From positions 1-64,000 of the forward strand of contig JAPOVS010000023.1 of the NCBI GenBank assembly GCA_026708055.1: a DNA stretch of 64,000 nt, read 5' to 3'. A program made the position numbers and the translations under genes. The notes under the pieces are model-generated. The model saw nothing but the letters and a program-made list of their open reading frames with translations. It was not told where the DNA came from and made no database searches. Shown here piece by piece: positions 24,135-37,820 of the stretch (positions are counted from its first letter, which is position 1; every line of letters starts with the position of its first letter). The stretch comes from a bacterium (GTDB lineage: Bacteria > Actinomycetota > Acidimicrobiia > Acidimicrobiales > CATQHL01).

Positions 24135-26714
24135 TCAGCCACCCGGCGCACCGGCGAAGACCTCGACATCGGACGCCTGCCGGAGCGCCGCCTTGCCCAG
24201 CTCGACGATCGCGACCCGCAAGTCCTCCGGTTCCAGGATGAAGATGCGAGCACCGGCCCGAAAGTACGCACCGAGAAGCTCCGGTGACTGCGCGCGTCCC
24301 ATGCGCACGCCGATCTGACAATCGGGAACGCCGATACGCACCGTCGTGAGTGCCGTGAAGATCCTCTGCTGCCAGCTGTCCTGACCCAGCCGCGGGTCCT
24401 CGGCGAGCCGCCCCTTTCGCATGTACTCGTCAAGGGGCTCGGCCGAGGTGAAAACGACCGCCGGGTAGCCCGAGGAGCTGACCATCAGGCGGTGCGCGTC
24501 GAGCCACAGGACTCGGGACCGCTGAGCCAGTTCCGCCGCCTTCTCGATGCCGAGCGGCGTGCTCACGAGCGCTCCGACCTCCAACTCGCCGCGACCCTCC
24601 TGTGACTGTTGCTGGGCGGCGAGTTCCTCGAGCATGGCCAGTTCCCGCGGGTCCGAGAGGTGGCGAACCACGAAGTAGGGAGTCGGCATGTCACCGGTCT
24701 CGCCGCAGGCCTGAGCCAGGGCTGCGACCTGGAGGCGGAGCAGTTCGCCGAGGCCCACCGGCAGGCCGACACCGGGATGGGCGACCAGCAACGACTCCAG
24801 ATCCAGGAACTCGCCCGCATCGCCGTCGATGAGATCGATGGCGCGCACGACGATGGGAACGCGGCGGGCGGCTTCGAAGACCGGGACCAGCAGCTCGGCC
24901 AGAGTCGGTTCGAGGCGGCTGAGGTCCACCCGGTCGCGGTGACGCTGCGCGCTCAGCTCGTCGGCCAGCTGCTGGACCGCACCGCTGGCCACGAGCAGGT
25001 CGATCAGCCGGATGCCGATGCCGTCGGCGCCGCGCTCGAGCGTCTCGGTGACCTGACCGGGCGTGGTGCAGAGCCCCAGGATGCGGCAGCTGCCCGCCGC
25101 CTCGCGGGCCACCCGCAACACCTCGCCGAGCCCGGTGCTCGACGAGGCGGGCTGCGACAGCGGCACGATCCCCTCGAACACGTCACCGGCGGCGCCGTCC
25201 ACCGAGAGACCGGTCCCCTCGGAGAACCGTCTCGACCCGACGCTGAACGTGCGGCCCTCGGGGTCGATGCCGAGGTCGGCGCAACCGACCACCGCCGGCC
25301 GGCCCAATGCCCGCGCCACGACCGCGGCGTGGCTCGTGGCGCCCCCGCGCGCCGTCACGATGCCCGTCGAGGCGATCATGCCGTGCAGGTCGAACGGGCT
25401 CGTCGTCTCCCGCAGGAGGATCACGTTCTCCCCGTCGGCGGCGATCGCCTCGGCGCGGTCGGGATCCAGTACCGCTGCCCCGTGCGCGTGGCCCACCGAG
25501 GCGGCTATCCCCTTCACCAGCAGCTTGCCGCTCGCCCGGGCGTCGGCGAGCGCGGCCGGCGCGAAACGGGGGCGCTCCACGTCGCGGATCTGGCCGGGCG
25601 TCACGCCGCTCAGAGCCTCCAGCGGGCTCACCGCGCCCTCGGCGAGGAGGTCCGCGGCGATGCGCACCGAGGCGTTCGGCGTCCGCTTGGCGCTGCGCAC
25701 CTGCAACAGGTACAGCCTCCCCCGCTCGACGGTGAACTCCAGGTCCAGTACGTCCTTGCGCTGCTGCTCGAGTCTGAGCGCCATGCGCTCGAAGTCCTCG
25801 AAGAGTTCCGGGCGCCGGCGCGCCGCCTCGGCCAGCGGCTCGGGCGTCCTGGTGCCCGCCACGATCTCCTCGCCCTGGCCGCCTTCGAGGTACTCCCCGT
25901 AGAGGCCGGGCTCGCCGGTGGTGGGGTTGCGGGTGAACGCCACACCGCTGCCCGAGGGGGAACCGAGATTGCCGAAGACCATCGCCTGCACGACGACGGC
26001 GGTGCCGAGCGAGTCGGATATGCCGTTCACGCGGCGGTAGGCAATGGCTCGACGGGTGTTCCAGGACCGGAACACCGCGGCGATGGCGCCGCGCACCTGT
26101 TCCATGGGGTCCTCGGGAACCGCCACGCCCACGTCGTCCACCTCGGCGGCGGCCATCGCCGACCAGAGACCGTCGAACGGCACCGGTGCGGACCGGTCCG
26201 CGGCGACGCCGTCCAGGAACTCCGAGCCGCGCGCGGCGACCTCGTCGCCGTCGGCGTCCAGCACGATCTCCGCGTACATGCGGTGGAACCGGATCATGAC
26301 CTCGGCCGCGAACTGCGCCGAGCCCGACGCCTCGGCCAGAGCGCGGGCCCGCCGCGGGTTGATCCCGAGGTTCAGGACCGTGTCCATCATCCCGGGCATC
26401 GAGACCGGCGCCCCCGAGCGGACCGACACCAGCAGGGGGCCGGCGCCGTCGGCAGGCTCCCCGACGCCCCGGAAGCTGGACGATGTCGCCTCCTCCAGCG
26501 CATCGATGTACCGCTCGAGTTGGCTGCCCAGCGCGGCCGGCAGGCTGCCGGCCTGCATGAACTCCCGGCATGCGGCCGTCGAGATGATGAAGCCGGGAGG
26601 AACCGGGTAGCCCCCCTCGACCAGGTGCGCCAGCCCGGCGCCCTTGCCCCCGAAGAGTGCCAGGTCCGATGGATCGGCTTCGTCAAAAGAGAAAACGAGC
26701 CTCGACGAGTCCAC
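24135..26714 (-). CDS. Pyruvate phosphate dikinase-like protein with degenerate C-terminal half
   Basis: The 859-residue protein has the PPDK_N ATP-grasp domain (ALFGGKGAGLAHLVEGGYPVPPGF at the N-terminus and ARGNLGSPSGSGVAFTRNPTTG-like features near residue 245) and a central phosphohistidine swivel domain with GIVTARGGATSHAAVVARA (His near 461). The length is that of PPDK (about 870). The C-terminal half, however, lacks the PEP/pyruvate-domain signature (CGEHGG active-site Cys region) and ends VGVRMGRAQSPELLG. It may therefore phosphorylate something other than pyruvate, as rifampin and phenol dikinases do. The start is GTG. It is co-transcribed with the 195- and 474-residue proteins and a separate swivel domain, and adjoins a microcompartment operon. 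The acceptor substrate is unknown. Confidence 0.78.
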   Translation of the reverse strand: MDSSRLVFSFDEADPSDLALFGGKGAGLAHLVEGGYPVPPGFIISTAACREFMQAGSLPAALGSQLERYIDALEEATSSSFRGVGEPADGAGPLLVSVRSGAPVSMPGMMDTVLNLGINPRRARALAEASGSAQFAAEVMIRFHRMYAEIVLDADGDEVAARGSEFLDGVAADRSAPVPFDGLWSAMAAAEVDDVGVAVPEDPMEQVRGAIAAVFRSWNTRRAIAYRRVNGISDSLGTAVVVQAMVFGNLGSPSGSGVAFTRNPTTGEPGLYGEYLEGGQGEEIVAGTRTPEPLAEAARRRPELFEDFERMALRLEQQRKDVLDLEFTVERGRLYLLQVRSAKRTPNASVRIAADLLAEGAVSPLEALSGVTPGQIRDVERPRFAPAALADARASGKLLVKGIAASVGHAHGAAVLDPDRAEAIAADGENVILLRETTSPFDLHGMIASTGIVTARGGATSHAAVVARALGRPAVVGCADLGIDPEGRTFSVGSRRFSEGTGLSVDGAAGDVFEGIVPLSQPASSSTGLGEVLRVAREAAGSCRILGLCTTPGQVTETLERGADGIGIRLIDLLVASGAVQQLADELSAQRHRDRVDLSRLEPTLAELLVPVFEAARRVPIVVRAIDLIDGDAGEFLDLESLLVAHPGVGLPVGLGELLRLQVAALAQACGETGDMPTPYFVVRHLSDPRELAMLEELAAQQQSQEGRGELEVGALVSTPLGIEKAAELAQRSRVLWLDAHRLMVSSSGYPAVVFTSAEPLDEYMRKGRLAEDPRLGQDSWQQRIFTALTTVRIGVPDCQIGVRMGRAQSPELLGAYFRAGARIFILEPEDLRVAIVELGKAALRQASDVEVFAGAPGG

Positions 26715-26735
26715 ACGCGCCCCCGGTTGCTCGCC

Positions 26736-27323
26736 TCAGTCCTCCAGAGACTCTCGAGGCCGGCCCAGTACGGCCAGAAGGTCCTCGTGGAACTCGAACC
26801 AGGTGTTGTGGAGAGAGTCCACCATCGGGCTGCTCACGTAGTCGGACCGGCCCGAATCGATGTACTCCAGGCTGCGCTCGAAACGCGCCGCGTAGTGGCT
26901 GTAGCGGGGGATCCAGCTCGCCGCCGCGCCCAGCGCCTCGACGTGGCGCTCGACGACCCGCGCCAGGCGTGAGTAGGTCCGTTCCTTCGCCTCGTCCGCT
27001 TCGGTCTGCCAGGCGCTCATCAGGTTCAGGAACCGCGCGTTGTAGCCCTCGAAGCGCTCGTACCACTCGAGGAATTCCGGCTCGCTGCGCAAGCCGGCGT
27101 ACTCGCGGTCGTAGTGCTCCAGGACGGCGCGCCGCCCCGGCTCGGTGAGGACGTGGTAGTCGCCCAGCTCGCGGACCAGCTCGCGTTCGACAGCCGATCG
27201 GAGGCAGGACTCGGCGTCGGCGCTGGAGAGGCCGGCGTTCTCCTCCATCGTGCCGCGGGTCGCCATCTTCGCCAGCCACACGGCGTTCAGCAGGAGGAAC
27301 TGCCCCTCGGGGAGCGTCGTCAT
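26736..27323 (-). CDS. Uncharacterised 195-residue protein of the dikinase cluster
   Basis: I do not recognise this family. The N-terminal 60 residues (FLLLNAVWLAKMATRGTMEE, then DYHVLTEPGRRAVLEHYDR) look like a winged-helix-type fold with a terminal-wing pattern. The rest is helical with many aromatic and charged residues (FLEWYERFEGYNARFLNLMSAWQ, ASWIPRYSHYAARFERSLEYI). It lies 21 bases upstream of the dikinase-like gene and 81 bases downstream of the 474-residue gene on the same strand, so it is very probably an accessory subunit or an activity regulator of that system. No signal peptide or membrane segment is present. Confidence 0.7.
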   Translation of the reverse strand: MTTLPEGQFLLLNAVWLAKMATRGTMEENAGLSSADAESCLRSAVERELVRELGDYHVLTEPGRRAVLEHYDREYAGLRSEPEFLEWYERFEGYNARFLNLMSAWQTEADEAKERTYSRLARVVERHVEALGAAASWIPRYSHYAARFERSLEYIDSGRSDYVSSPMVDSLHNTWFEFHEDLLAVLGRPRESLED

Positions 27324-27404
27324 GCCACCGAAGCCCGCCGGCGGATCAGCCCCGCGACCGCACGCCGTCCGGAGACCGGCGGGCGGTCGCGTGCATCGAG
27401 CGGG

Positions 27405-28829
27405 CTAAGCCCAGAGGTACTTCGAGGCCCGCAGATCGGCCTCGTCGGAGAACGGCAGGTAACCCTCTCCGGAGAAGATCTTCTGCGGGACGACCACCTG
27501 CACGAAGTTCCGCTTGGTGATCTCGTAGTAGTAGTTCATGACCCGCTGGTCGATCTCCCAGAAGTCCTTCTTGGCGCAGATCTCGTCGTACATGCCCGCC
27601 TTGCGGAGATGCGGGAGGATCATCTCGATGTAGTAGCTGTAGATGCCGTTGAGGCACAGGGTGTGCCGGGACATCTTTGCGGTCTTCTTGTACATCCGGT
27701 AGGTGGAGTCGCGCAGCCTCTCCATGTGGGGCTCGAGCTCCGTCAGCGGCACCGCGTACACGTCGCTCATCGGCGTGTCCCACTTGTCGCGCACGAACAC
27801 CGCCCCGCCGGTGATGTGGGGGACGTAGTTCTTCGGGATCGTGAAGCTCGTGGAGATGTCGTTGACCCGGATCTCCTGGAGTCCCATCAGGTCGGGATCC
27901 AGGACCACCGCCAGCGTGTAGCAGTGCGGGAGACCCTCGCAGACGTCGCTCCAGTGGAAGACCTCCTCGTTCACGAAGAGGTCCCGGACGATGAGAATCC
28001 GCCCGTCGGGAAGCGGGTACGGTCCCGTGTCCCCGAGGCCCAGACGGCAGTCGTAGTGGTCGAAGAACGCCAGCAGCTCGGCGGTCGCATTGAACTGCTC
28101 GAAGGTGTGCTGGTCCGGGGATCCCGGGTCGAAGTCCTGGACCTGCCCCATCAGCTGATCGATGAGCGCCGGCTCGTGGATCTTGCAGCGGTAGCGGTCC
28201 TGGGAGTTGAGGATGTAGCCGTCCTGCCGCTTGCCCCAGAGGACGCGCTGCATGAACTTGAGGATGATGTTGCTCTCCTCGACGTAGTCGTCGGCGCCGA
28301 TCCACTCGCCGGCCAGCAGACCGCAGCGGCCCATGCCGAACGCCACCGCGCCGAGGCACCAGTCGTGCACGCAGTTGATCTTGGTGCCGATCTCCGAACG
28401 GGCGCTCTCGCCGATGTCGATCACGCCCTGGGCGCCGATCCGGTCGGTGACCATGCGCATGAACTCGGGGTACCGGTAGAACTCGTTCATGAACGCCAGG
28501 ATCTCGTACTCCTGGCGGGGGATCATGCCCGAGACGCCCTCGGTGGCCCGCATCACGAGCACGTCCCAGATGTTCCACGCCAGGTAGTTGTTCAGATCGT
28601 TCAACTCGTCCAGGGTGAACTGGTCGTTCAGGACTTCCTCGTGCGTGACCTTCTCGAGCACGCCCGACTTGGCACGCGTCCGCATGATCTTGTCGCCGAG
28701 GATGCCGTCGGGTACCGGCTCCATGCCCTTGAAGTTCCCGACGTACTCCAGCGGCTGGAACCGCAGCCCGTCATCGTCCGGCTCGTAGCGCTTCGCGTAC
28801 TCGGCGGTTGCCTGTTCGAGGATCGTCAT
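27405..28829 (-). CDS. Uncharacterised 474-residue protein, possible catalytic subunit of the dikinase cluster
   Basis: The sequence has no family that I can name. It is rich in Asp, Tyr, Trp and Cys, lacks membrane segments, and shows likely conserved islands: INCVHDWCLGAVAFGMGRCG (about residues 150-169), SQDRYRCKIHEPALIDQLMG, VNEEVFHWSDVCEGLPHCYT and YVPHITGGAVFVRDKWD. The several His, Cys and Asp residues could form a metal or active site. GAAGGAG precedes the ATG. Position between a phosphohistidine domain gene and the dikinase gene suggests that it binds or transforms the phosphoryl acceptor. That function is inference only. Confidence 0.72.
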   Translation of the reverse strand: MTILEQATAEYAKRYEPDDDGLRFQPLEYVGNFKGMEPVPDGILGDKIMRTRAKSGVLEKVTHEEVLNDQFTLDELNDLNNYLAWNIWDVLVMRATEGVSGMIPRQEYEILAFMNEFYRYPEFMRMVTDRIGAQGVIDIGESARSEIGTKINCVHDWCLGAVAFGMGRCGLLAGEWIGADDYVEESNIILKFMQRVLWGKRQDGYILNSQDRYRCKIHEPALIDQLMGQVQDFDPGSPDQHTFEQFNATAELLAFFDHYDCRLGLGDTGPYPLPDGRILIVRDLFVNEEVFHWSDVCEGLPHCYTLAVVLDPDLMGLQEIRVNDISTSFTIPKNYVPHITGGAVFVRDKWDTPMSDVYAVPLTELEPHMERLRDSTYRMYKKTAKMSRHTLCLNGIYSYYIEMILPHLRKAGMYDEICAKKDFWEIDQRVMNYYYEITKRNFVQVVVPQKIFSGEGYLPFSDEADLRASKYLWA

Positions 28830-28956
28830 CGCATTTCTCCTTCGGGGTATTCGGGTTCGGTCCTGCCAGTCGGCGACATTGCCGTCTCGGTAAGCAGCAG
28901 CCGGATGGTTCGGGGACGAGCAGCCGCGCGTTCGCCGGATTCGAGGGGCGCCCGGC

Positions 28957-29376
28957 TCAGTCGAGCAGAACGACCTTTCCGACGTCGTGGTCGGAGCAGT
29001 CGAGCTTGACGCTCTTGCCGTTCAGCGCCTCAACGATCTCCTCGAAGTGCGAGTCGTCCGTCTCGCCGGGCACATAGCGGGAGCCGCTGCCCTCGGTGAG
29101 ATAGGCGGTCATCACGCAGGGCGTCTGGAACTCGCGGGAGAGGATGCCCAGGTGGGACTCCGGCGCCCCCGACATCGTGACGACGCCGATGGCTCCCATC
29201 GTGAGGGCGGGCGCCAGGAAGGTGGTGGTGCCGCCGCGAACGAGCAGGATGTGATCGCGCAGCTTGCCGCTGTCGATCAGGGAAATGACGTCCATGGGGC
29301 TCGCCAGGTAATGCACGGTTCCTGAAGGCTGCTTGTTTGTTTCGAAGACATTCATGCCTTCAGCAATGACAGTCAC
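28957..29376 (-). CDS. Free-standing phosphohistidine (PEP-utiliser swivel) domain
   Basis: This 139-residue protein corresponds to the mobile phosphohistidine domain of PEP-utilising enzymes. The stretch VVTMSGAPESHLGILSREF, with the candidate phosphoryl-carrying His75, aligns with VTARGGATSHAAVVARA in the neighbouring dikinase-like protein, and ILLVRGGTTTFLAPAL precedes it as in the family. It has no ATP-grasp or PEP-binding domain of its own, so it must receive its phosphoryl group from another protein, most simply the dikinase encoded 2.2 kb downstream. The start is GTG with GAGGAGG upstream. A separate swivel subunit beside a dikinase that already has one is unusual. Confidence 0.75.
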   Translation of the reverse strand: MTVIAEGMNVFETNKQPSGTVHYLASPMDVISLIDSGKLRDHILLVRGGTTTFLAPALTMGAIGVVTMSGAPESHLGILSREFQTPCVMTAYLTEGSGSRYVPGETDDSHFEEIVEALNGKSVKLDCSDHDVGKVVLLD

Positions 29377-29667: not shown

Positions 29668-30729
29668 TCAGCTGCCGATGGCCGCCAGGACGCTGCGCAG
29701 CAACTCGTCGCGGACCTCCGGGGCGTTGCTCGGGACGGTGCCGGCCGGCGGCGCATCCGCCGCGGCCTGCGGATCGCAGCAGCCGCTCTCGGTGGTCGTC
29801 CCGCCGCAGTCGCAGGATGCCCCGCAGCAGGATGCCCCAGGGGTCGCGGCGGCGGGCGACTCCATCCCGCGAGCCGCAGCCGCCGAGGACGTACTGCGAC
29901 CGGCCGTCGGCTTCGCTCTCCGGCCACGGCGGTGCGCCGCCGCGGCAGCCGCCGCGCTGCGGACGGCGTTGCCCGCCGCCGCGGCGGACCGGGACGGCGG
30001 CGGTCCCGCGGTACACGGGCCCCCCTCGGCACTGCGGCCGTCGCGGAGATACACCAGCAGCTCCTCGGGCCAGACGCACACGAACTCCGCGCCGGCCGCC
30101 TTCAGCCGATCCGCGCTGTGCATGCCCCAGGCCACGCCGCAGACCCGGATCCCGGCCTTGAGCGCCTCGGTGACGTCGCCCACCGTGTCGGTGATCAGCA
30201 TGACCTCGTTGGATGCATGCTTGTGGGGAGTCACCGCCTCGTCGTAGTACGGCACGCATTGGCGCCCGCAGGCGTACGTGGGGTCCTCCAGGACGTGATC
30301 GATCGCATGCACCTTGCTGGGTGCGACCTCGCCGGAGAACACGTGCGCGAAGCAGTCCGCCAGACCGTTGTTCTCCAGAACCCGCCGCACCGACTCCATC
30401 GTGTTCGAGGAGACGATCATCAACGTGTACGACGAGGCCAGCTTGCGCACGATCGCCGCGATGCCGGGCACCACCTCCGGGAGATAGTCCGAACGCAGGT
30501 TGCGCTGGAAGTGCTCCTGCACGAGCGCCGGATCGACCACGCCCCGCTCCCGCGCCAGCGCCTCCAGCGCCTCGAAGAAGTTCTCCTCGAACAGCTGGAA
30601 GAACTCCGCCGCCGAACCGACTCCCAGCCCGAACTCCGAATCAGTCTCCTGGAAGATCTGCCAGGAACTGTTCCGCGTCTGGACGAGCGTGCCGTCGAGG
30701 TCGAACAGCAGTGCCCGAAGTTCGGACAT
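29668..30729 (-). CDS. HAD-family phosphatase with Cys-rich linker and encapsulation-peptide-like tail
   Basis: Residues 1-230 form a phosphoglycolate-phosphatase-like HAD hydrolase: LLFDLDGTLVQT (nucleophile Asp10, Asp12), MIVSSNTMESV, Lys in VAPSKVHAID and LITDTVGDVTEALKAG. After residue 235 there is an Ala/Arg/Gly-rich linker, a Cys cluster (ASCCGASCDCGG, then SGCCDP), an Ala/Pro stretch and a final short helix, VRDELLRSVLAAIGS. Such an amphipathic terminal helix behind a flexible linker is how many enzymes are addressed to the microcompartment lumen. The shell operon starts 1.2 kb away. The substrate is unknown; a phosphorylated intermediate made by the dikinase-like system is a reasonable guess. 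Confidence 0.78.
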   Translation of the reverse strand: MSELRALLFDLDGTLVQTRNSSWQIFQETDSEFGLGVGSAAEFFQLFEENFFEALEALARERGVVDPALVQEHFQRNLRSDYLPEVVPGIAAIVRKLASSYTLMIVSSNTMESVRRVLENNGLADCFAHVFSGEVAPSKVHAIDHVLEDPTYACGRQCVPYYDEAVTPHKHASNEVMLITDTVGDVTEALKAGIRVCGVAWGMHSADRLKAAGAEFVCVWPEELLVYLRDGRSAEGGPCTAGPPPSRSAAAAGNAVRSAAAAAAAHRRGRRAKPTAGRSTSSAAAARGMESPAAATPGASCCGASCDCGGTTTESGCCDPQAAADAPPAGTVPSNAPEVRDELLRSVLAAIGS

Positions 30730-30732
30730 CCA

Positions 30733-31707
30733 TCAGCTTCCTTCGGCACCGAGGGCCGTGACGGTGGACAGTCCCAGGAAGTCCTGCGTCTCCCCCTTGC
30801 CGACGTTGCCGTCCTGGTCCTGCCAGTCCATCAAGGCGTTGAAGCCGATGACGCCGGGCCAGGCCTGCCACGGGAAGGTGGTCAATCCCGTGCCGGTGAA
30901 CCGGTACCGGCGGCCGATGCGGTCCTCCACCTCAAGGTGCTTCTCGACGGGATAGAAGCCGTCCCTGACCGTCCGCCCGCTGCCGCCACGGAGGCCGTAC
31001 ACCTCCCCGTGATCCATGATGTAGCCGTGCGTCAACCGCAACCCCTCCAGTTCGTGGGGGTCGTAGTCGAAGATGGCGTGGAGGGCGTAGTCCTCCGAGA
31101 AGTGCGCGTGCAGCCAACTCATCGAATGGGCGTGGCGCTCGGCCCTGACTCCCCAACTGTGGTCCATCGTGGAGACGCACCGGAACGGGATCTTGGAGCC
31201 GCGTAGCACGATCTCTCCCTCGAAGAGGCCAGTCTCGTCGAAGTGGCCGCTGTAGGCCGTCCCCCACTGGAAGTCCGAGCCCGCCACCTTCGCCGCCAGC
31301 ATCGGATCCTGCTCGGGATCGTTGATGTCGTACGGCGCCATGAGCGAGCGGTAGCTGAAGTGGATCTCGGTGCCCTCGCCGTCGTCGTAGTCGACCTCCC
31401 AGTCCATGTTGGGCTTGGTGCAGCGGACCGCCAGCCCGTTGGCGAGCCTGTAGTCCTGCAGGTCGAAATCGGGGCCCATCGGGAGGTGCATCTGCATGTC
31501 GCAGTACTCGGCCTCCCAGTGGGAGTAGGCGCGCCGCGAGCACATGTGGATCGTCGACAGCGCGACGCCCAGATTGGTGCGGCACAGCACATAGACGCCG
31601 CAATTGAGATTCAACTGCGGCACGTAGAACCCGAAGAAGTTCGTCTCCGCCCAGTGCGGGTCGTCCGAGGTCGGAACGTGGAGTGCCGCATCGCTGTCCA
31701 GAATCAT
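30733..31707 (-). CDS. Lipocalin-like (DUF7064/CrtC-type) protein
   Basis: The 324-residue soluble protein resembles the DUF7064/hydroxyneurosporene-synthase-like group built of two lipocalin-type beta-barrels. Recognisable points are the repeated aromatic beta-strand pattern, the central MDHSWGVRAERHAHSMSWLHAHF segment (about residues 190-210) and GYIMDHGEVYGLRG. Relatives bind or modify hydrophobic molecules, but functions are mostly unproven. It is the first gene of the minus-strand cluster, only three bases before the phosphatase gene, and diverges from the shell operon across 252 bases. The assignment to this family is from memory of the motif and is moderately secure. Confidence 0.6.
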   Translation of the reverse strand: MILDSDAALHVPTSDDPHWAETNFFGFYVPQLNLNCGVYVLCRTNLGVALSTIHMCSRRAYSHWEAEYCDMQMHLPMGPDFDLQDYRLANGLAVRCTKPNMDWEVDYDDGEGTEIHFSYRSLMAPYDINDPEQDPMLAAKVAGSDFQWGTAYSGHFDETGLFEGEIVLRGSKIPFRCVSTMDHSWGVRAERHAHSMSWLHAHFSEDYALHAIFDYDPHELEGLRLTHGYIMDHGEVYGLRGGSGRTVRDGFYPVEKHLEVEDRIGRRYRFTGTGLTTFPWQAWPGVIGFNALMDWQDQDGNVGKGETQDFLGLSTVTALGAEGS

Positions 31708-31959: not shown

Positions 31960-32256
31960 ATGCAGCTAGCCAGAGTCATCGGCCAAGTCGTTGCGACGGT
32001 CAAGGAGCCGGGTCTGGACACCTTCAAGATCCTGATCGTGCAGAACATCGATCCGTCCGCGCCGGACGGCGAGGCGAGCGCGCCTCCCTATGTCGCCGTC
32101 GACCTCGTCGGCGCCGGCGAGGGAGAGCTGGTCACCGTGGCACAAGGGAGCGCGGCTCGGGTGCCGAGAGCCACGGCGAACACCCCGACCGACAGCGCGG
32201 TCGTGGCGATAGTCGACACGTTGAACGTTGACGGAGCGGTCACCTTCGAGAAGTGA
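31960..32256 (+). CDS. Microcompartment pentamer shell protein (BMC-P, EutN/CcmL family)
   Basis: The 98-residue protein has the EutN/CcmL/PduN pattern: it begins MQLARVIGQVVATVKEPGLD, followed by LDTFKILIVQNID, PYVAVDLVGAGEGELVTVAQGSAAR and AVVAIVDTLNV. BMC-P pentamers cap the vertices of the icosahedral shell. The ATG at 31960 is preceded by GAGG. It is the first gene of the plus-strand operon, an uncommon place for the vertex protein, and is followed 77 bases later by the hexamer gene. One BMC-P, one BMC-H and one BMC-T are present, which is the minimum needed for a closed shell. Confidence 0.93.
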   Translation: MQLARVIGQVVATVKEPGLDTFKILIVQNIDPSAPDGEASAPPYVAVDLVGAGEGELVTVAQGSAARVPRATANTPTDSAVVAIVDTLNVDGAVTFEK

Positions 32257-32333: not shown

Positions 32334-32651
32334 ATGGCGACCAGAGGATCAGGCATCTCCCTAACGGCTCTCGGCCTCATCGAGACTCGCGGGCTCGTCG
32401 GTGCGATAGAAGCCGCTGACGCAATGGTGAAGGCAGCCAACGTGCAACTGGTCTCACGCGAGCAGATCGGGGGTGGTCTCGTGACTGTGATGGTTCGGGG
32501 CGACGTCGGCGCCGTCAAGGCCGCCACGGACGCCGGATCGGTCGCCGCGGGCAAGGTGGGCGAAGTCATCGCCGTTCACGTCATCCCGCGGCCTCACGAC
32601 GAGGTCGAGATGATCCTCGGTGATGCCGCCGCTGGAGCTGCGACGACCTGA
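32334..32651 (+). CDS. Microcompartment hexamer shell protein (BMC-H)
   Basis: This 105-residue protein is a canonical single BMC domain: [55 protein letters not shown] and [19 protein letters not shown] hexamers tile the shell facets and their central pores pass metabolites. A strong GGAGG lies before the ATG. The short C-terminal tail ([12 protein letters not shown]) has no extra domain. It is the only BMC-H in the window. Confidence 0.96.
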
Positions 32652-32695: not shown

Positions 32696-34090
32696 ATGAC
32701 CACCGCCGTTGACACTGACCTGGCCGCACTGGCCGAGGCCCGCACCAAGGCGCGGGAGGCAAGAGCCGCGTTCGAGGAGTTCGTCGGCACGAGCCAGGAA
32801 CGCCTCGACGCCATCCTCCGGCAGATGGCACGTGCGGGAACGGCCGCGGCCGAGGAACTGGCGCGCCTGGCCGTCGAGGAGACCGGCTACGGCGTCTACG
32901 AGCACAAGATCCTCAAGAACCGCTACAACACGACCTTCGTCGCCAAGCACATGCTCCGCCAGAGGGCGGTCGGCGTGCTCTGGGTGGACGAGGCGAGCAG
33001 GATGACCGCCGTCGGGTGCCCGATGGGAGTGATCGCCGGACTCATTCCGCGCACCAATCCCACCTCCACCGTGCTCTTCAAGGCCCTCGCCGCGATCAAA
33101 TCGGGCAACGGGATCGTCTTCTCACCTCACCCCCGCGCCGTCGAGTGCTGCCGACGGACGACCGAGGTCGTGGCCGAGGCGGCGGTGAAGGCCGGGGCGC
33201 CGCGCGGGCTGATCTCCTGCCTGGAGACTCCCACGCTCGCGAGCACGCAGGAGTTGATGAGCCACCCGGCGGTGTCCCTGGTGCTCGCCACGGGAAGCGG
33301 CGAGATGGTCCGGGTGTGCTACTCCTCCGGCAAGCCGACGATCGCCGTGGGGGCGGGCAACGTCCCGGTCTACATCCACCGCAGCGTGCCCGACGTCACC
33401 GAGGCCGCGCTCATGGTCGTCGAATCGAAGGCCTTCGACAACGGCACGGCGTGCGTCGCCGAGCAGGCCGTCATCCTGGACGAGCCGATCGCGGATGAGT
33501 TCCTCGACGCCCTGCGCGGGGCCGGTATGGCCATGCTGGAGCGGTCCCAGCACGAATCATTGCGGCGGCTGGTCTTCGATGAGCGCGGCGGGCTCAGGCC
33601 GGATCCGGTGGGGCAATCCGCAGTAACCCTCGGAAACCTCTGCGGCATACCGGTCGCTCCCGGGACGCGGGTGCTCGGTGTCCAACTCGACACCGTGGGA
33701 CCGCACGAGATGCTGTCCGCGGAGATCCTGGGGCCCGTTCTGAAGCTCTACCGGGAGCCCACGCCGGCGGCCGCATTCGACAGGTGCCTGGAGGTGCTCC
33801 ACTTCGGAGGCGAGGGCCACACTCTGGGTCTGCACGCCACGGACGTGGACGTCATCGAGCGTTTCTCCTCCCTGCCCGCGTCGCGCTTCCCGGTGAACAC
33901 GCCGACCCTCTTCGGCGGGATGGGTTACAGCGCCGACATCGACCCCTCGTTCATGCTCGGCACCGGGACCTGGAGCGGGTCGATCAGCTCGGACAACATC
34001 ACGGCGCTGCACCTCATCAACATCAAGCGGATCGCGCACGAGGTGCGTCCCTGGCGCCAGCTCGTCGGCGACACGGCACTCCCGCCATGA
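32696..34090 (+). CDS. CoA-acylating aldehyde dehydrogenase of the microcompartment
   Basis: The 464-residue enzyme oxidises an aldehyde to acyl-CoA with NAD+ and CoA. It matches the EutE/PduP/AdhE N-terminal group: GVIAGLIPRTNPTSTVLFKA, LVLATGSGEMVRVCYSSGKP, VGAGNVPVYIHRS and the catalytic Cys253 in FDNGTACVAEQ. The C-terminal LTIGTGTWSGS-like segment (MLGTGTWSGSISSDNI) is also typical. The N-terminal helix DLAALAEARTKAREARAAFEEF is part of the standard fold, so an N-terminal targeting peptide is not evident. It overlaps the EutJ gene by an ATGA junction. The acyl-CoA formed would need a phosphotransacylase, which is not encoded here. Confidence 0.92.
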   Translation: MTTAVDTDLAALAEARTKAREARAAFEEFVGTSQERLDAILRQMARAGTAAAEELARLAVEETGYGVYEHKILKNRYNTTFVAKHMLRQRAVGVLWVDEASRMTAVGCPMGVIAGLIPRTNPTSTVLFKALAAIKSGNGIVFSPHPRAVECCRRTTEVVAEAAVKAGAPRGLISCLETPTLASTQELMSHPAVSLVLATGSGEMVRVCYSSGKPTIAVGAGNVPVYIHRSVPDVTEAALMVVESKAFDNGTACVAEQAVILDEPIADEFLDALRGAGMAMLERSQHESLRRLVFDERGGLRPDPVGQSAVTLGNLCGIPVAPGTRVLGVQLDTVGPHEMLSAEILGPVLKLYREPTPAAAFDRCLEVLHFGGEGHTLGLHATDVDVIERFSSLPASRFPVNTPTLFGGMGYSADIDPSFMLGTGTWSGSISSDNITALHLINIKRIAHEVRPWRQLVGDTALPP

Positions 34091-34911
34091 CCCTCGCCGC
34101 GGTGCGACCTGCTCATCCAGCCGAGTTCTACCTCGACCGGGTGGCGCGCTGCCTCGAGGCGGCGCCCGTCCCCCTGAGCGGTGAGCTGCACGCCGGCATC
34201 GACCTGGGGACCTCCACGGTCGTCCTGACCGTCACCGACGGCGACGGGCTGCCGGCGTTCGTCGCAACCGAACCCTGCGAGGCGCTGCGCGACGGCGTCG
34301 TGGTGGACTTCGGTGGGGCGGTCGAGGCGGTCACGAGGCTCGTCGAGACCGCCGCCGCCGACACCGGCCACCGGATCGACGCGGCGTCCGCCGGTTACCC
34401 GCCGGGCATCGGGCCGACCGAGAGCCGGGCATGCCGCTTCGTCCTGGAGCGTGCCGGCCTGGATTGCACGACACTCACCGACGAGGTGAGCGCGGCCAAC
34501 TCGGTCCTGGGGATCAGCGACGGCGTTCTGGTGGACGTCGGCGCCGGCTCCACCGGGGTGGGGATCTTCCGCGACGGTGAACTCGTCGAGGTGGGTGACG
34601 TGCCGGGCGGCGGCCATCATCTGAACCTGATCCTGGCCGGGGCACTCGGAACCTCCGTCGAGGAGGCGGAGCGGCGCAAGCGGACCGACGGCGCCGACCA
34701 CCTGCCGATCCTGCGTCCCGGACTCGAACGCATCGCCGTCTCCATCGAGCGCCTCTCCAGCGGCCACGGATCGCTGCCGGTGCACCTGGCCGGCGGCGGG
34801 TTGATGCTGCCCGGCGCCGCCGGGGTCGTCTCGCAATACCTGGAACGGGCGGTCATCGAGTACCCGCACGCCCTCTACATCACACCCCTCGGCTTGGCCT
34901 GGAGTTCGTAA
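34087..34911 (+). CDS. EutJ-like actin/Hsp70-fold ATPase
   Basis: This 274-residue protein has the ASKHA ATPase fold of EutJ: phosphate-1 motif AGIDLGTSTVVLTVTD (about residues 37-52), phosphate-2 DVGAGSTGVGIF (about 153-164) and the adenosine motif LAGGGLMLPG near the C-terminus. EutJ proteins are thought to act as chaperones or reactivating factors for microcompartment enzymes. The start at 34087 overlaps the aldehyde dehydrogenase stop (ATGA), and its own TAA overlaps the start of the BMC-T gene (TAATG). A longer frame upstream is open but internal to the dehydrogenase gene. Confidence 0.88.
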   Translation: MTLAAVRPAHPAEFYLDRVARCLEAAPVPLSGELHAGIDLGTSTVVLTVTDGDGLPAFVATEPCEALRDGVVVDFGGAVEAVTRLVETAAADTGHRIDAASAGYPPGIGPTESRACRFVLERAGLDCTTLTDEVSAANSVLGISDGVLVDVGAGSTGVGIFRDGELVEVGDVPGGGHHLNLILAGALGTSVEEAERRKRTDGADHLPILRPGLERIAVSIERLSSGHGSLPVHLAGGGLMLPGAAGVVSQYLERAVIEYPHALYITPLGLAWSS

Positions 34912-35531
34912 TGGCAGACGTGACCCTCCGGACCTACGCCTTCATCGACCGGCTGCAGCCGCAGTGCGCCGCGCACATCGCCGCCACCTGCCAGGGCGAC
35001 GTGCCCGTGGCGGGAATGGCGGAACTCTTCGTGGAGATGTCGCCGGGCAACGAGGTCTTCCACGTTGCCGACGTCGCCCTCAAGGCGGCCAGCGTCCGAC
35101 CGGCCCTGCAGATCATCGAGCGCGAGTTCGGGCTCCTGGAACTCCACTCCGAGAGCCAGGCCGAGGTGCTGGCTTCGGGAGCGGCGATCCTGTCGGAGCT
35201 GAACCTGCAGGAATCGGACCGCCTCAAGCCGACGATCGCCTCGACGCAGTTCATCACCAACATCCACCCCTACCAGGCGCAACTACTGAACAAGTTCCGC
35301 AAGGGCGCGCTGCTCATTCCTGGCGAGAGCCTCTTCGTCCTTGAGGTCGCGCCGGCCGCCTACGCCGGTCTGGCCGCCAACGAGGCGGAGAAGGCCGCCA
35401 CGATCAAGGTCGTCGAGATCCGGGCGGTGGGACGGTTCGGCCGCACGTTCCTGGCGGGCAGCGAGAGTGAGGTCGCCACCGCACGGGACGCCGCCGTCGG
35501 GGTGCTGTCGAGTCTCGAAGGCCGCACATGA
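34911..35531 (+). CDS. Circularly permuted tandem shell protein (BMC-T, EutL/PduB-like)
   Basis: The 206-residue protein contains two diverged BMC domains in the circularly permuted order seen in EutL and PduB. The first half carries HVADVALKAASVRPALQIIE. The second carries ESLFVLEVAPAAYAGLAANE and GRFGRTFLAGSESEVATARD. Trimers of such proteins form pseudohexameric tiles, often with a large gated pore for cofactors. Similarity to the standard pattern is weak in the first domain, so routine searches may give a low score. Its start overlaps the stop codon of the EutJ gene. Confidence 0.82.
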   Translation: MADVTLRTYAFIDRLQPQCAAHIAATCQGDVPVAGMAELFVEMSPGNEVFHVADVALKAASVRPALQIIEREFGLLELHSESQAEVLASGAAILSELNLQESDRLKPTIASTQFITNIHPYQAQLLNKFRKGALLIPGESLFVLEVAPAAYAGLAANEAEKAATIKVVEIRAVGRFGRTFLAGSESEVATARDAAVGVLSSLEGRT

Positions 35532-35544
35532 GGGCCACCCGGAC

Positions 35545-36786
35545 ATGAGGGTCGTCGGCGTCAGGGACGTCGAGCAGAACGCAGGGGGAGAACTCCGCGT
35601 CACCGTCGGCGACGTCGTCACCCCGCTGGCACGGGACCGCGCCCGCGAGTTGAACGTCCGCTTCATCGTCACACCCAATTCAGGGGCCAGCCCGGACTAC
35701 ATCGGCACCCCCGGCGCCGCCTTCGAGGAGCCCGCTCCGAACGGCAGGCAGGCGACCAACGACCCGCCTGCCGGAGCCCTCTACCGGCGAGGCGCCCCGG
35801 TCGTGAACGCCGATCAGGACCCCCGGTCGGTCGTCTCGGGGGCGCACCGGGGCCCCGGCGGGCGCCTGACCGTCGTGGGCGCCGGACACGTGGGCGTCAC
35901 GACCGCCATGCGCCTCGCCGAGTCCGACCTGTTCGGCGAGATCGTGATGGTCGACACCGTGCCGGGACTGGCTGAGGGCCTGGCACTGGACCTCACCCAC
36001 AGCGCCGGCCTGCAACGCTTCGGGACGACGCTGCGGGGGACCAACGACCCGGCGGACGCCGCCGGTGCCGACTACGTGGTCGTGACCGCGGGTCGACCCC
36101 GGCAACCCGGCATGTCCCGCAGCGACCTGATCCGGGTGAACGCCGAGATCATCAGCGCGGTCTCCACCGACATCGGGCGGCACTCGCCCGACGCCGCGGT
36201 GCTGGTCGTCACCAATCCGTTGGACGAGATGACCGCCCTGGCCCAGCGGGAGACCGGCTTCGGTCCCGAGCGCGTTCTGGGCATGGCCGGAGTGCTGGAC
36301 GCCGCCCGCTTCTGCGCGCTCGTCGCCCTCGCCACGGGCGGGCGTGCCGAGGAGGTCTCGGCACTGGCCCTCGGCAGCCACGGCAACGAGATGGTGATAC
36401 CCCTCAGCCAGGCCCGCGTCGGTGGCCGGCGGATCGCCTCGGTCCTCGACGAGGCAACCCTTGAGCGGATCGTTGAGCGCACCCGAGACTCGGGCGCCGA
36501 GGTGGTCGGGCTGCTGAAGACGGGCAGCGCCTACTACGCCCCCGCGGCCTCGGTGGCCCGGATGATCGGCGCCATGGTCCAGGGCAGCGACGAGGTGCTC
36601 GGTGCCTGCGTCCAGGCGGACGGAACCTTCGGCATCAGCGGCACCTACCTCGGCCTTCCGGTCCGCCTGGACTCCGGCGGGGTCGCCGAGATCGTGAGCC
36701 TCGACCTCAGCGCCGCCGAACTCTCCGAGCTCCGCGTGGCCGCGCAAAGGATCGAAGAACGGTTCAGTGAACTGGCAGGCGCCTGA
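35545..36786 (+). CDS. Malate/lactate dehydrogenase-like protein with microcompartment-type N-terminal extension
   Basis: Residues about 110-413 form an NAD-dependent L-lactate/malate dehydrogenase: LTVVGAGHVGVTTAMRLAES, VVTAGRPRQPGMSRSDLI (substrate Arg), VTNPLDEMTALA, GMAGVLDAARF and the catalytic His in GSHGNEMVIPL. The first 100 residues are an extra segment. It opens with MRVVGVRDVEQNAGGELRVT and then VGDVVTPLARDRARELNVRF, a pattern I know from other microcompartment-associated proteins, and ends in a disordered linker. The segment may tether the enzyme to the shell or cargo. The dehydrogenase probably recycles NADH to NAD+ inside the shell. Its substrate could be malate, lactate or another 2-hydroxy acid. 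Confidence 0.82.
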   Translation: MRVVGVRDVEQNAGGELRVTVGDVVTPLARDRARELNVRFIVTPNSGASPDYIGTPGAAFEEPAPNGRQATNDPPAGALYRRGAPVVNADQDPRSVVSGAHRGPGGRLTVVGAGHVGVTTAMRLAESDLFGEIVMVDTVPGLAEGLALDLTHSAGLQRFGTTLRGTNDPADAAGADYVVVTAGRPRQPGMSRSDLIRVNAEIISAVSTDIGRHSPDAAVLVVTNPLDEMTALAQRETGFGPERVLGMAGVLDAARFCALVALATGGRAEEVSALALGSHGNEMVIPLSQARVGGRRIASVLDEATLERIVERTRDSGAEVVGLLKTGSAYYAPAASVARMIGAMVQGSDEVLGACVQADGTFGISGTYLGLPVRLDSGGVAEIVSLDLSAAELSELRVAAQRIEERFSELAGA

Positions 36787-37820
36787 TGCGCGCCGTCGTC
36801 TTCGATTCCCCCGGCAGGGTCGCCCTCGCCGACGTCCCGGAGCCTCGCATCGAGAACCACACCGATGCCCTCGTGGACATCAGGGTCAGCGCCATCTGCG
36901 GAACCGACCTGCATGCGCTGCATGGGCTTCCCGGCATCCCGCCCGGCACGGTGCTGGGTCACGAGTTCGTCGGCGAGATCGTCGCCGTCGGCTCGGCGGT
37001 GCAGGACCGCAAGGTCGGGGAGCTGGTCAACGCCAGTGACTTCACGGCCTGCGGCCGCTGCTGGTGGTGCCGCCAGGGCGATCACTGGGAGTGCGAGGAG
37101 CGCAGCTTCTTCGGCTTCGGGTCGGTCTTCGGCGCGCCCCTGCCGGGGGCGCAGTCGGAGATCATCCGCGTGCCCCACGCCGACTCGGTGCTCTGCCCGG
37201 TGCCCGAGCACTGCACCGCTGAGGCCGCCGTGTTCGTGGGCGACACGCTGGCCTGCGGTTTCGCAGCCGCTGAGCGCGGCGGGCTGGTGCCGGGCGAGAC
37301 CGTGGCCATCGTGGGCGGGGGCACCGTCGGGCAGATGGCCAGCCTGGCCTGCCAGATCATCGGCGCGGCGACCGTCGTCGTCACCGACCGGCTCCCGGCG
37401 CGCCTGCAGGTGGCGGTCGACAACGGAGCGATCCCCGCCTCGCCCGAAGAGGCCGAGGGGATCATCGCCGAACTGACCGACGGGCGCGGCGCGGACGTGG
37501 CCATCGACGCCGTCGGCGGCCCGGCGCCGCTGGAAGCCGCCTGCGACCTCGTGCGGCGTCGCGGCAGGATCGTCTCGGTGGGCGCCCACTTCGATGCGAC
37601 GTTCCCCTACCCGATCGCCAGGGCGTTCGCCGACGAGCTGACGCTCACCTGCGCCATCGGGGACTCCATCAGGCTGCGCGACCGGATCTTCCCGCTGCTG
37701 TCGGCCGGGGTGCTCGACCCGACCGCCATCGTGACGGGCACGGTCTCCCTGGCCGGGGTGCCCGAGGCGTATCAGCGCATGGCCGCCCACGAGGAGCTGA
37801 AGGTGCTGATCCGCCCCTGA
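36786..37820 (+). CDS. Zinc-dependent alcohol dehydrogenase
   Basis: This 344-residue medium-chain dehydrogenase has catalytic-zinc residues in SAICGTDLHAL and GHEFVGEIV and a full structural-zinc set CGRCWWCRQGDHWEC. The Rossmann loop is VAIVGGGTVGQMASL. Its start overlaps the stop codon of the malate dehydrogenase-like gene (TGATG), so it belongs to the microcompartment operon. In known metabolosomes an alcohol dehydrogenase reduces part of the aldehyde to regenerate NAD+ for the acylating enzyme. Alternatively it may generate the aldehyde from an alcohol substrate. It is the last gene of the operon. Confidence 0.9.
   Translation: MRAVVFDSPGRVALADVPEPRIENHTDALVDIRVSAICGTDLHALHGLPGIPPGTVLGHEFVGEIVAVGSAVQDRKVGELVNASDFTACGRCWWCRQGDHWECEERSFFGFGSVFGAPLPGAQSEIIRVPHADSVLCPVPEHCTAEAAVFVGDTLACGFAAAERGGLVPGETVAIVGGGTVGQMASLACQIIGAATVVVTDRLPARLQVAVDNGAIPASPEEAEGIIAELTDGRGADVAIDAVGGPAPLEAACDLVRRRGRIVSVGAHFDATFPYPIARAFADELTLTCAIGDSIRLRDRIFPLLSAGVLDPTAIVTGTVSLAGVPEAYQRMAAHEELKVLIRP

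Follow-up and report, generated by a model that had tools for sequence, protein, structure and literature searches.

A probable encapsulation peptide at the C-terminus of a HAD-family phosphatase encoded beside a microcompartment shell operon in Acidimicrobiia

In the window (the whole stretch of DNA that was analysed, 64,000 nucleotides), a HAD-family phosphatase encoded divergently from a microcompartment (BMC) shell operon ends in a short tail that is probably a bona fide encapsulation peptide (EP), and this would make the phosphatase luminal cargo. The original prediction, that the phosphatase of the divergent operon is carried inside the compartment, is supported by the BMC-linked conservation of the tail, by its match to EutC and by its likeness to the cargo peptides of a related locus (L106), and from these we infer the luminal position of the enzyme. 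According to our model, the last ∼13–16 residues would form an amphipathic helix at the end of a long flexible linker, this helix would bind other EPs and/or the inner face of the shell, and the binding would carry the phosphatase into the microcompartment of the divergent shell operon. Because the tail closely resembles the address tag of EutC, the phosphatase is probably packed inside together with the neighbouring aldehyde-processing enzymes. The signal is thus of a known kind; the enzyme that carries it and the locus are unusual.

Catalytic domain, linker and tail of the phosphatase

The features of the phosphatase and of its locus are collected in Table 1. The motifs DLDGT, SN, K and TDTVGD are retained in all six homologues that we compared, as in HAD enzymes of the subfamily I type, and among the NCBIfam models the phosphatase was nearest to PpaX and phosphoglycolate phosphatase, with scores far below their cut-offs. 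Phosphonatase (PhnX) was rejected as an identity because motif I is DLDGT and the PhnX-like NCBIfam model gave 28 bits against a cut-off of 219; DLDGT is the motif I of the phosphatase type, which differs from the PhnX motif. A 16-residue C-terminal tail behind an Ala/Pro-rich linker had been noted in the sequence, and this was confirmed: ∼110 Ala/Pro/Gly/Arg-rich residues precede the tail, and the stop codon TGA (29668–29670) follows directly after EVRDELLRSVLAAIGS. EPs are joined to their cargo by poorly conserved flexible linkers, and in three close relatives the linker had an amino acid identity of 34–54% and many gaps, compared with 83–88% identity in the catalytic domain; the linkers of three further homologues (G001, G205 and G220) allowed no confident alignment. 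The Cys-rich cluster within the linker could bind metal or form disulfides.

The tail had also been described as a helix with V2, L6, V10 and A13 on one face and L7, L11 and I14 alongside. All of these residues are present, but V2 is not conserved across the homologues, and the comparison leaves L6-L7-(V/A/I)10-L11-I14-G15 of the 16-mer as the conserved core, usually with an acid before it. The hydrophobic moment of the tails was 0.46–0.61 (0.52 for E. coli EutC), a range that was reached by 5–24% of shuffles, hence the moment alone is no proof of an EP. A PDB sequence search with the tail as query returned no match.

Table 1. Features of the phosphatase gene and of the surrounding locus, with coordinates in the window
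Feature	Position	Strand	Basis or remark
Pyruvate phosphate dikinase (PPDK)-like protein	24135..26714	−	Strong similarity in ATP-grasp and swivel; substrate domain at the C-terminus divergent
195-aa protein, no family match, third module member	26736..27323	−	Syntenic
474-aa protein, no family match	27405..28829	−	Paired with swivel domains across the class
Stand-alone PEP-utiliser swivel domain, His kept (SHLGI)	28957..29376	−	Pfam PF00391; syntenic in all six loci
HAD-family phosphatase gene, 353 aa	29668..30729	−	Pfam HAD_2, 65 bits; alignment
C-terminal 16 residues EVRDELLRSVLAAIGS, proposed EP	29671..29718	−	Translation
Tail core DELLRSVLAAIGS	29671–29709	−	Conserved in six homologues; top match to EutC 7–19
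Variable Ala/Pro/Arg/Cys-rich linker, residues 229–337	29719..30045	−	Linker identity low, many gaps
Cys-rich cluster in linker (SCCGASCDC...GCC)	29776..29829	−	Cys-rich stretch at corresponding place in all six homologues
Basic RRGRR segment (RR-x-RR) in linker	29917..29931	−	Similar basic segment in all six homologues
HAD catalytic domain, residues 1–228	30046–30729	−	Pfam HAD_2 above cut-off
DUF7064/7065 protein, first gene of divergent operon	30733..31707	−	Pfam; syntenic, G006 copy on second contig
BMC-P (EutN/CcmL-like) shell protein, first shell-operon gene	31960..32256	+	By eye, compared with E. coli EutN; syntenic
BMC-H shell protein	32334..32651	+	By eye, compared with E. coli EutM; syntenic
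CoA-acylating-type aldehyde dehydrogenase, no C-terminal extension	32696..34090	+	TIGR02518, 442 bits
EutJ-like protein, start approximate	34087..34911	+	Assigned by eye; synteny
BMC-T shell protein, CcmP-like	34911..35531	+	Pfam BMC; NF053796, 248 bits (cut-off 340)
Malate dehydrogenase-like enzyme, ∼106-aa N-terminal extension with GDVVTPLARDRA and linker	35545..36786	+	Profile matches
Zinc-type alcohol dehydrogenase-like enzyme	36786..37820	+	Pfam and NCBIfam profile matches

Conservation of the tail and its association with shell loci

Relatives in the class and phylum were sought with the catalytic domain alone as query. The six homologues compared (G000, G003, G006 and G001 from the family of the window, G205 and G220 from another family) span three genera, two families and one class (Acidimicrobiia) and form three tight groups; the orthologue set includes the public records L002 (bacterium isolate APA_bin_18) and L003 (Acidimicrobiia bacterium isolate SB0661_bin_55). 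The phosphatase operon is divergent from the same shell operon in all six loci, with the PPDK-like, 195-aa, 474-aa, swivel, HAD and DUF7064 genes on one strand and, on the opposite strand, the genes of BMC-P, BMC-H and aldehyde dehydrogenase, followed by those of the EutJ-like protein, BMC-T and the malate and alcohol dehydrogenase-like enzymes. The locus of G006 is split over two contigs, the halves of which are joined by the broken phosphatase gene, and the contigs of G205 and G220 end soon after BMC-H. Conservation of the tail in homologues adjoining BMC genes had been predicted, and each of the six linked loci keeps it; outside the window, the tails read DELLRRVLASIGS (G006), AALFRRALVAIGD (G003), DRLLLRALELIGS (G001), DPLLRQVLTVIGS (G220) and DPLLRQILTVLGS (G205). 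The pattern (D)xLL..(V/A/I)L..(I/L)G is retained in every homologue, at the end of the extension or close to it, although the rest of the extension is hardly alignable. It is terminal in four of them; ∼36 more residues come after it in G205 and G220, and hence it is not strictly terminal in these two.

A regular expression for the motif, with R/K/Q at the third position, matched the terminal region of every HAD except that of G001, which has L at this position (five of six), and none of the other ORFs (894 ORFs of at least 90 aa), and the remaining matches from a DNA pattern scan of the six whole genomes sit in open frames that are not gene-like. It might be argued that an Ala-rich, GC-rich extension merely looks amphipathic by chance, and the low complexity of the linker is in line with this, as is the pN/pS of the tail, which in pairs with G003 (just 13 codons) did not fall clearly below the value for the linker. 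Such an origin is extremely unlikely, because the same pattern recurs at the equivalent position in three homologue groups with unrelated linkers, and the tail is unique among the 894 ORFs and 93,310 13-mers.

Within the family of the window, the phosphatase is present in four of nine genomes, and these are exactly the four with a BMC-T gene; this overlap is one arrangement in 126 if the two genes are independent, in genomes that are related and partly incomplete. As controls we used 24 more distant HADs (23 from the phylum-wide search and L004), which at 23–42% identity are distant controls. None of them has a comparable extension, as expected from the prediction that homologues away from BMC genes lack the tail, and the number of residues past the equivalent of query position 230 ranged from below zero to 16 in local alignments. 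In the class sample (198 genomes) and the phylum sample (396 genomes), we found no close homologue of the phosphatase (>50% identity) that was unlinked to BMC genes; such a homologue would be the sharpest control. The same tail in BMC-free genomes, named in the original prediction as the observation that would speak against it, was not encountered, and all orthologues found are BMC-linked. The tail is thus present with BMC-linked homologues (six of six loci) and absent from the distant HADs, which is the distribution by which EPs are recognized. Given its unexceptional hydrophobic moment, the tail could nevertheless be a common structural helix at the C-terminus of this HAD subfamily, serving oligomerisation or stability with no link to a compartment, a role that any conserved amphipathic helix could fill. 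We consider this very improbable: the tail stands behind ∼110 unconserved residues, and both the distant controls and the BMC linkage of every orthologue argue against it.

Likeness to known encapsulation peptides and to cargo of related loci

When the window tail was compared with 14 Eut proteins of E. coli K-12 MG1655, the best gapless match was to residues 7–19 of EutC (EEIVRSVMASMGQ), with a BLOSUM62 score of 37; the next Eut match scored 21, and none of 20,000 shuffles reached 37. With EutC 7–19 as query, the phosphatase tail was first at 37 among the 93,310 13-mers of the window (six frames), and the next scored 26. Over these 13 gapless residues, EEIVRSVMASMGQ and DELLRSVLAAIGS are alike in hydrophobic spacing, in the acid-Arg pair and in the Gly. 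EutC 1–19 is the EP of the ethanolamine ammonia-lyase small subunit; Salmonella EutC1-19 (MDQKQIEEIVRSVMASMGQ) targets EGFP into Eut shells, and the EutC EP also targets beta-galactosidase (PMC3299773). The Salmonella peptide is identical to E. coli EutC over the matched part. Their settings differ, because the EutC EP is N-terminal on a B12 enzyme, whereas the window tail lies at the C-terminus of a HAD phosphatase and follows a ∼110-residue linker that contains Cys-rich and basic segments.

Metabolosome EPs have been described as carrying an acidic residue and an Arg that are spaced by one helical turn, together with a key hydrophobic residue; in PduP the pair is E7/R11 (PMC12339742). The hydrophobic residue is present in all six tails, and the pair, as D-x-x-x-R, in four (window, G006, G205 and G220). 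Against an EP stand the tails of G003 and G001, which are without this pair and scored poorly against EutC (13 and 8, respectively), whereas those of G220 and G205 gave moderate scores (20 each); strict likeness to EutC is seen in two of the six tails and the hydrophobic pattern in all six. A further point against an EP is that the aldehyde dehydrogenase of the window has no recognisable EP.

Of 395 genomes sampled from the class, 94 (about a quarter) have relatives of the CcmP-like BMC-T gene, thus shells are common in the class although the phosphatase is rare. The locus with the nearest other shell found, L106 (BMC-T 69%, BMC-H 83%), has EP-like peptides on its aldehyde dehydrogenase (EDLVHRVLERLGG), its malate dehydrogenase (EELTRKVMERITG) and a small protein (EELVAAVMARLGC), and an N-terminal one on an octopine-dehydrogenase-like enzyme (DDLVEAIVAELRS). 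An averaged score built from EutC, EutE, four L106 peptides and one L115 peptide, with no HAD included, placed the window tail first of 93,310. Because the L106 peptides were found with a HAD-tail score, this L106-based comparison is partly circular, but the match to EutC is not. In L106, L113 and L114, the aldehyde dehydrogenase is extended at its C-terminus by 40–72 residues and ends in an EP-like helix; as in other type I BMC aldehyde dehydrogenases (PMC8217296), the peptide is C-terminal and behind a linker, which is also the arrangement in the phosphatase. In contrast to type I BMCs, the aldehyde dehydrogenase of the window ends without an extension (it matches TIGR02518 up to model position 454 of 488) and the putative EP is on the phosphatase instead; those of L115 and L123 also stop at the domain end. 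Hence the recognisable targeting sequences in the window would be that of the phosphatase and perhaps one on the malate dehydrogenase-like enzyme, which is a second candidate cargo; its N-terminal extension (35545–35860, +) was weakly like EutT and EutQ (E 0.009 and 0.34, in a two-sequence database).

In L106 and L115, the domain of this extension is encoded on its own, as a small protein that has an EP-like helix towards its C-terminus, and these small proteins end in Cys-rich sequences (CGCGCEHG and CACGEHG) that may be compared with the cluster in the phosphatase linker. L106 (5500–16700) and L115 (6700–15100) represent another type of BMC locus, in which glutamine synthetase-like, glutamate synthase-like and octopine-dehydrogenase-like genes adjoin the aldehyde and malate dehydrogenases; the octopine-dehydrogenase-like protein of L106 matches Pfam PF02317. 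The BMC-T protein of the window resembles carboxysome CcmP, at a score below the cut-off, although the locus is that of a metabolosome.

The dikinase-like module and the possible role of the phosphatase

The region 24135–29376 (−) looks like a divided dikinase-like module. The 474-aa and 195-aa proteins had no Pfam or NCBIfam match, and a PDB sequence search with the 474-aa protein gave nothing meaningful. HpeHI, PpsAB and CreHI are split two-component small-molecule dikinases (PMC12167813), and as in the window their swivel and ATP-grasp parts are split and encoded together; the window module is unlike them in that the swivel stands alone as a small protein, no family was matched by the 474-aa and 195-aa proteins, and the ATP-grasp lies inside a PPDK-like protein whose C-terminal domain has diverged. 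Pairs of the 474-aa protein and a swivel domain, joined in some cases by the 195-aa protein, were seen in ∼47 of 395 genomes of the class, and G205 and G220 have several tandem copies of genes of the 474-aa/swivel type.

Since the phosphatase gene lies inside the operon of this module, the synteny of which extends to all six loci, the tail could be a docking helix that keeps the phosphatase in a cytosolic complex with its operon partners, the swivel, 474-aa and 195-aa proteins, rather than with the shell. Moreover, 20 other BMC-T loci that were read had, within the stretches taken, no phosphatase, swivel, 474-aa, 195-aa, PPDK-like or DUF7064 gene, and because module and phosphatase are both missing there, the tail follows the distribution of the module as much as that of the shell. 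Nevertheless docking to the module is improbable, as it leaves the likeness to the EutC EP and to the cargo peptides of the related locus unexplained, and the 474-aa/swivel/195-aa module is widespread in the class without a close relative of the phosphatase.

If the tail is an EP, the dikinase-like module outside the shell would make a phosphorylated metabolite, which the phosphatase would hydrolyse inside the shell; the product would lead to an aldehyde taken by the acylating aldehyde dehydrogenase, and the malate and alcohol dehydrogenase-like enzymes would recycle NADH. That a phosphate ester made by the module is hydrolysed in the shell and feeds the aldehyde dehydrogenase is a guess, conceivable but doubtful. 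It is unlikely that this is a BMC with the kinase outside and the phosphatase inside, in which a multi-part dikinase would phosphorylate in the cytosol, the phosphate ester would enter the shell and the HAD phosphatase would be the signature enzyme, releasing an aldehyde or an aldehyde precursor, for instance through hydrolysis of an enol phosphate.

Our literature search found no description of this locus or of a HAD phosphatase as a candidate BMC cargo, and the main text of the BMC catalogue (PMC8217296) makes no mention of phosphatase, malate or PPDK. The tag would link both of the divergent operons to a single organelle, with a HAD phosphatase as a candidate for its cargo. Thus one short peptide may offer a direct handle on the function of an uncharacterised compartment of the Acidimicrobiia.
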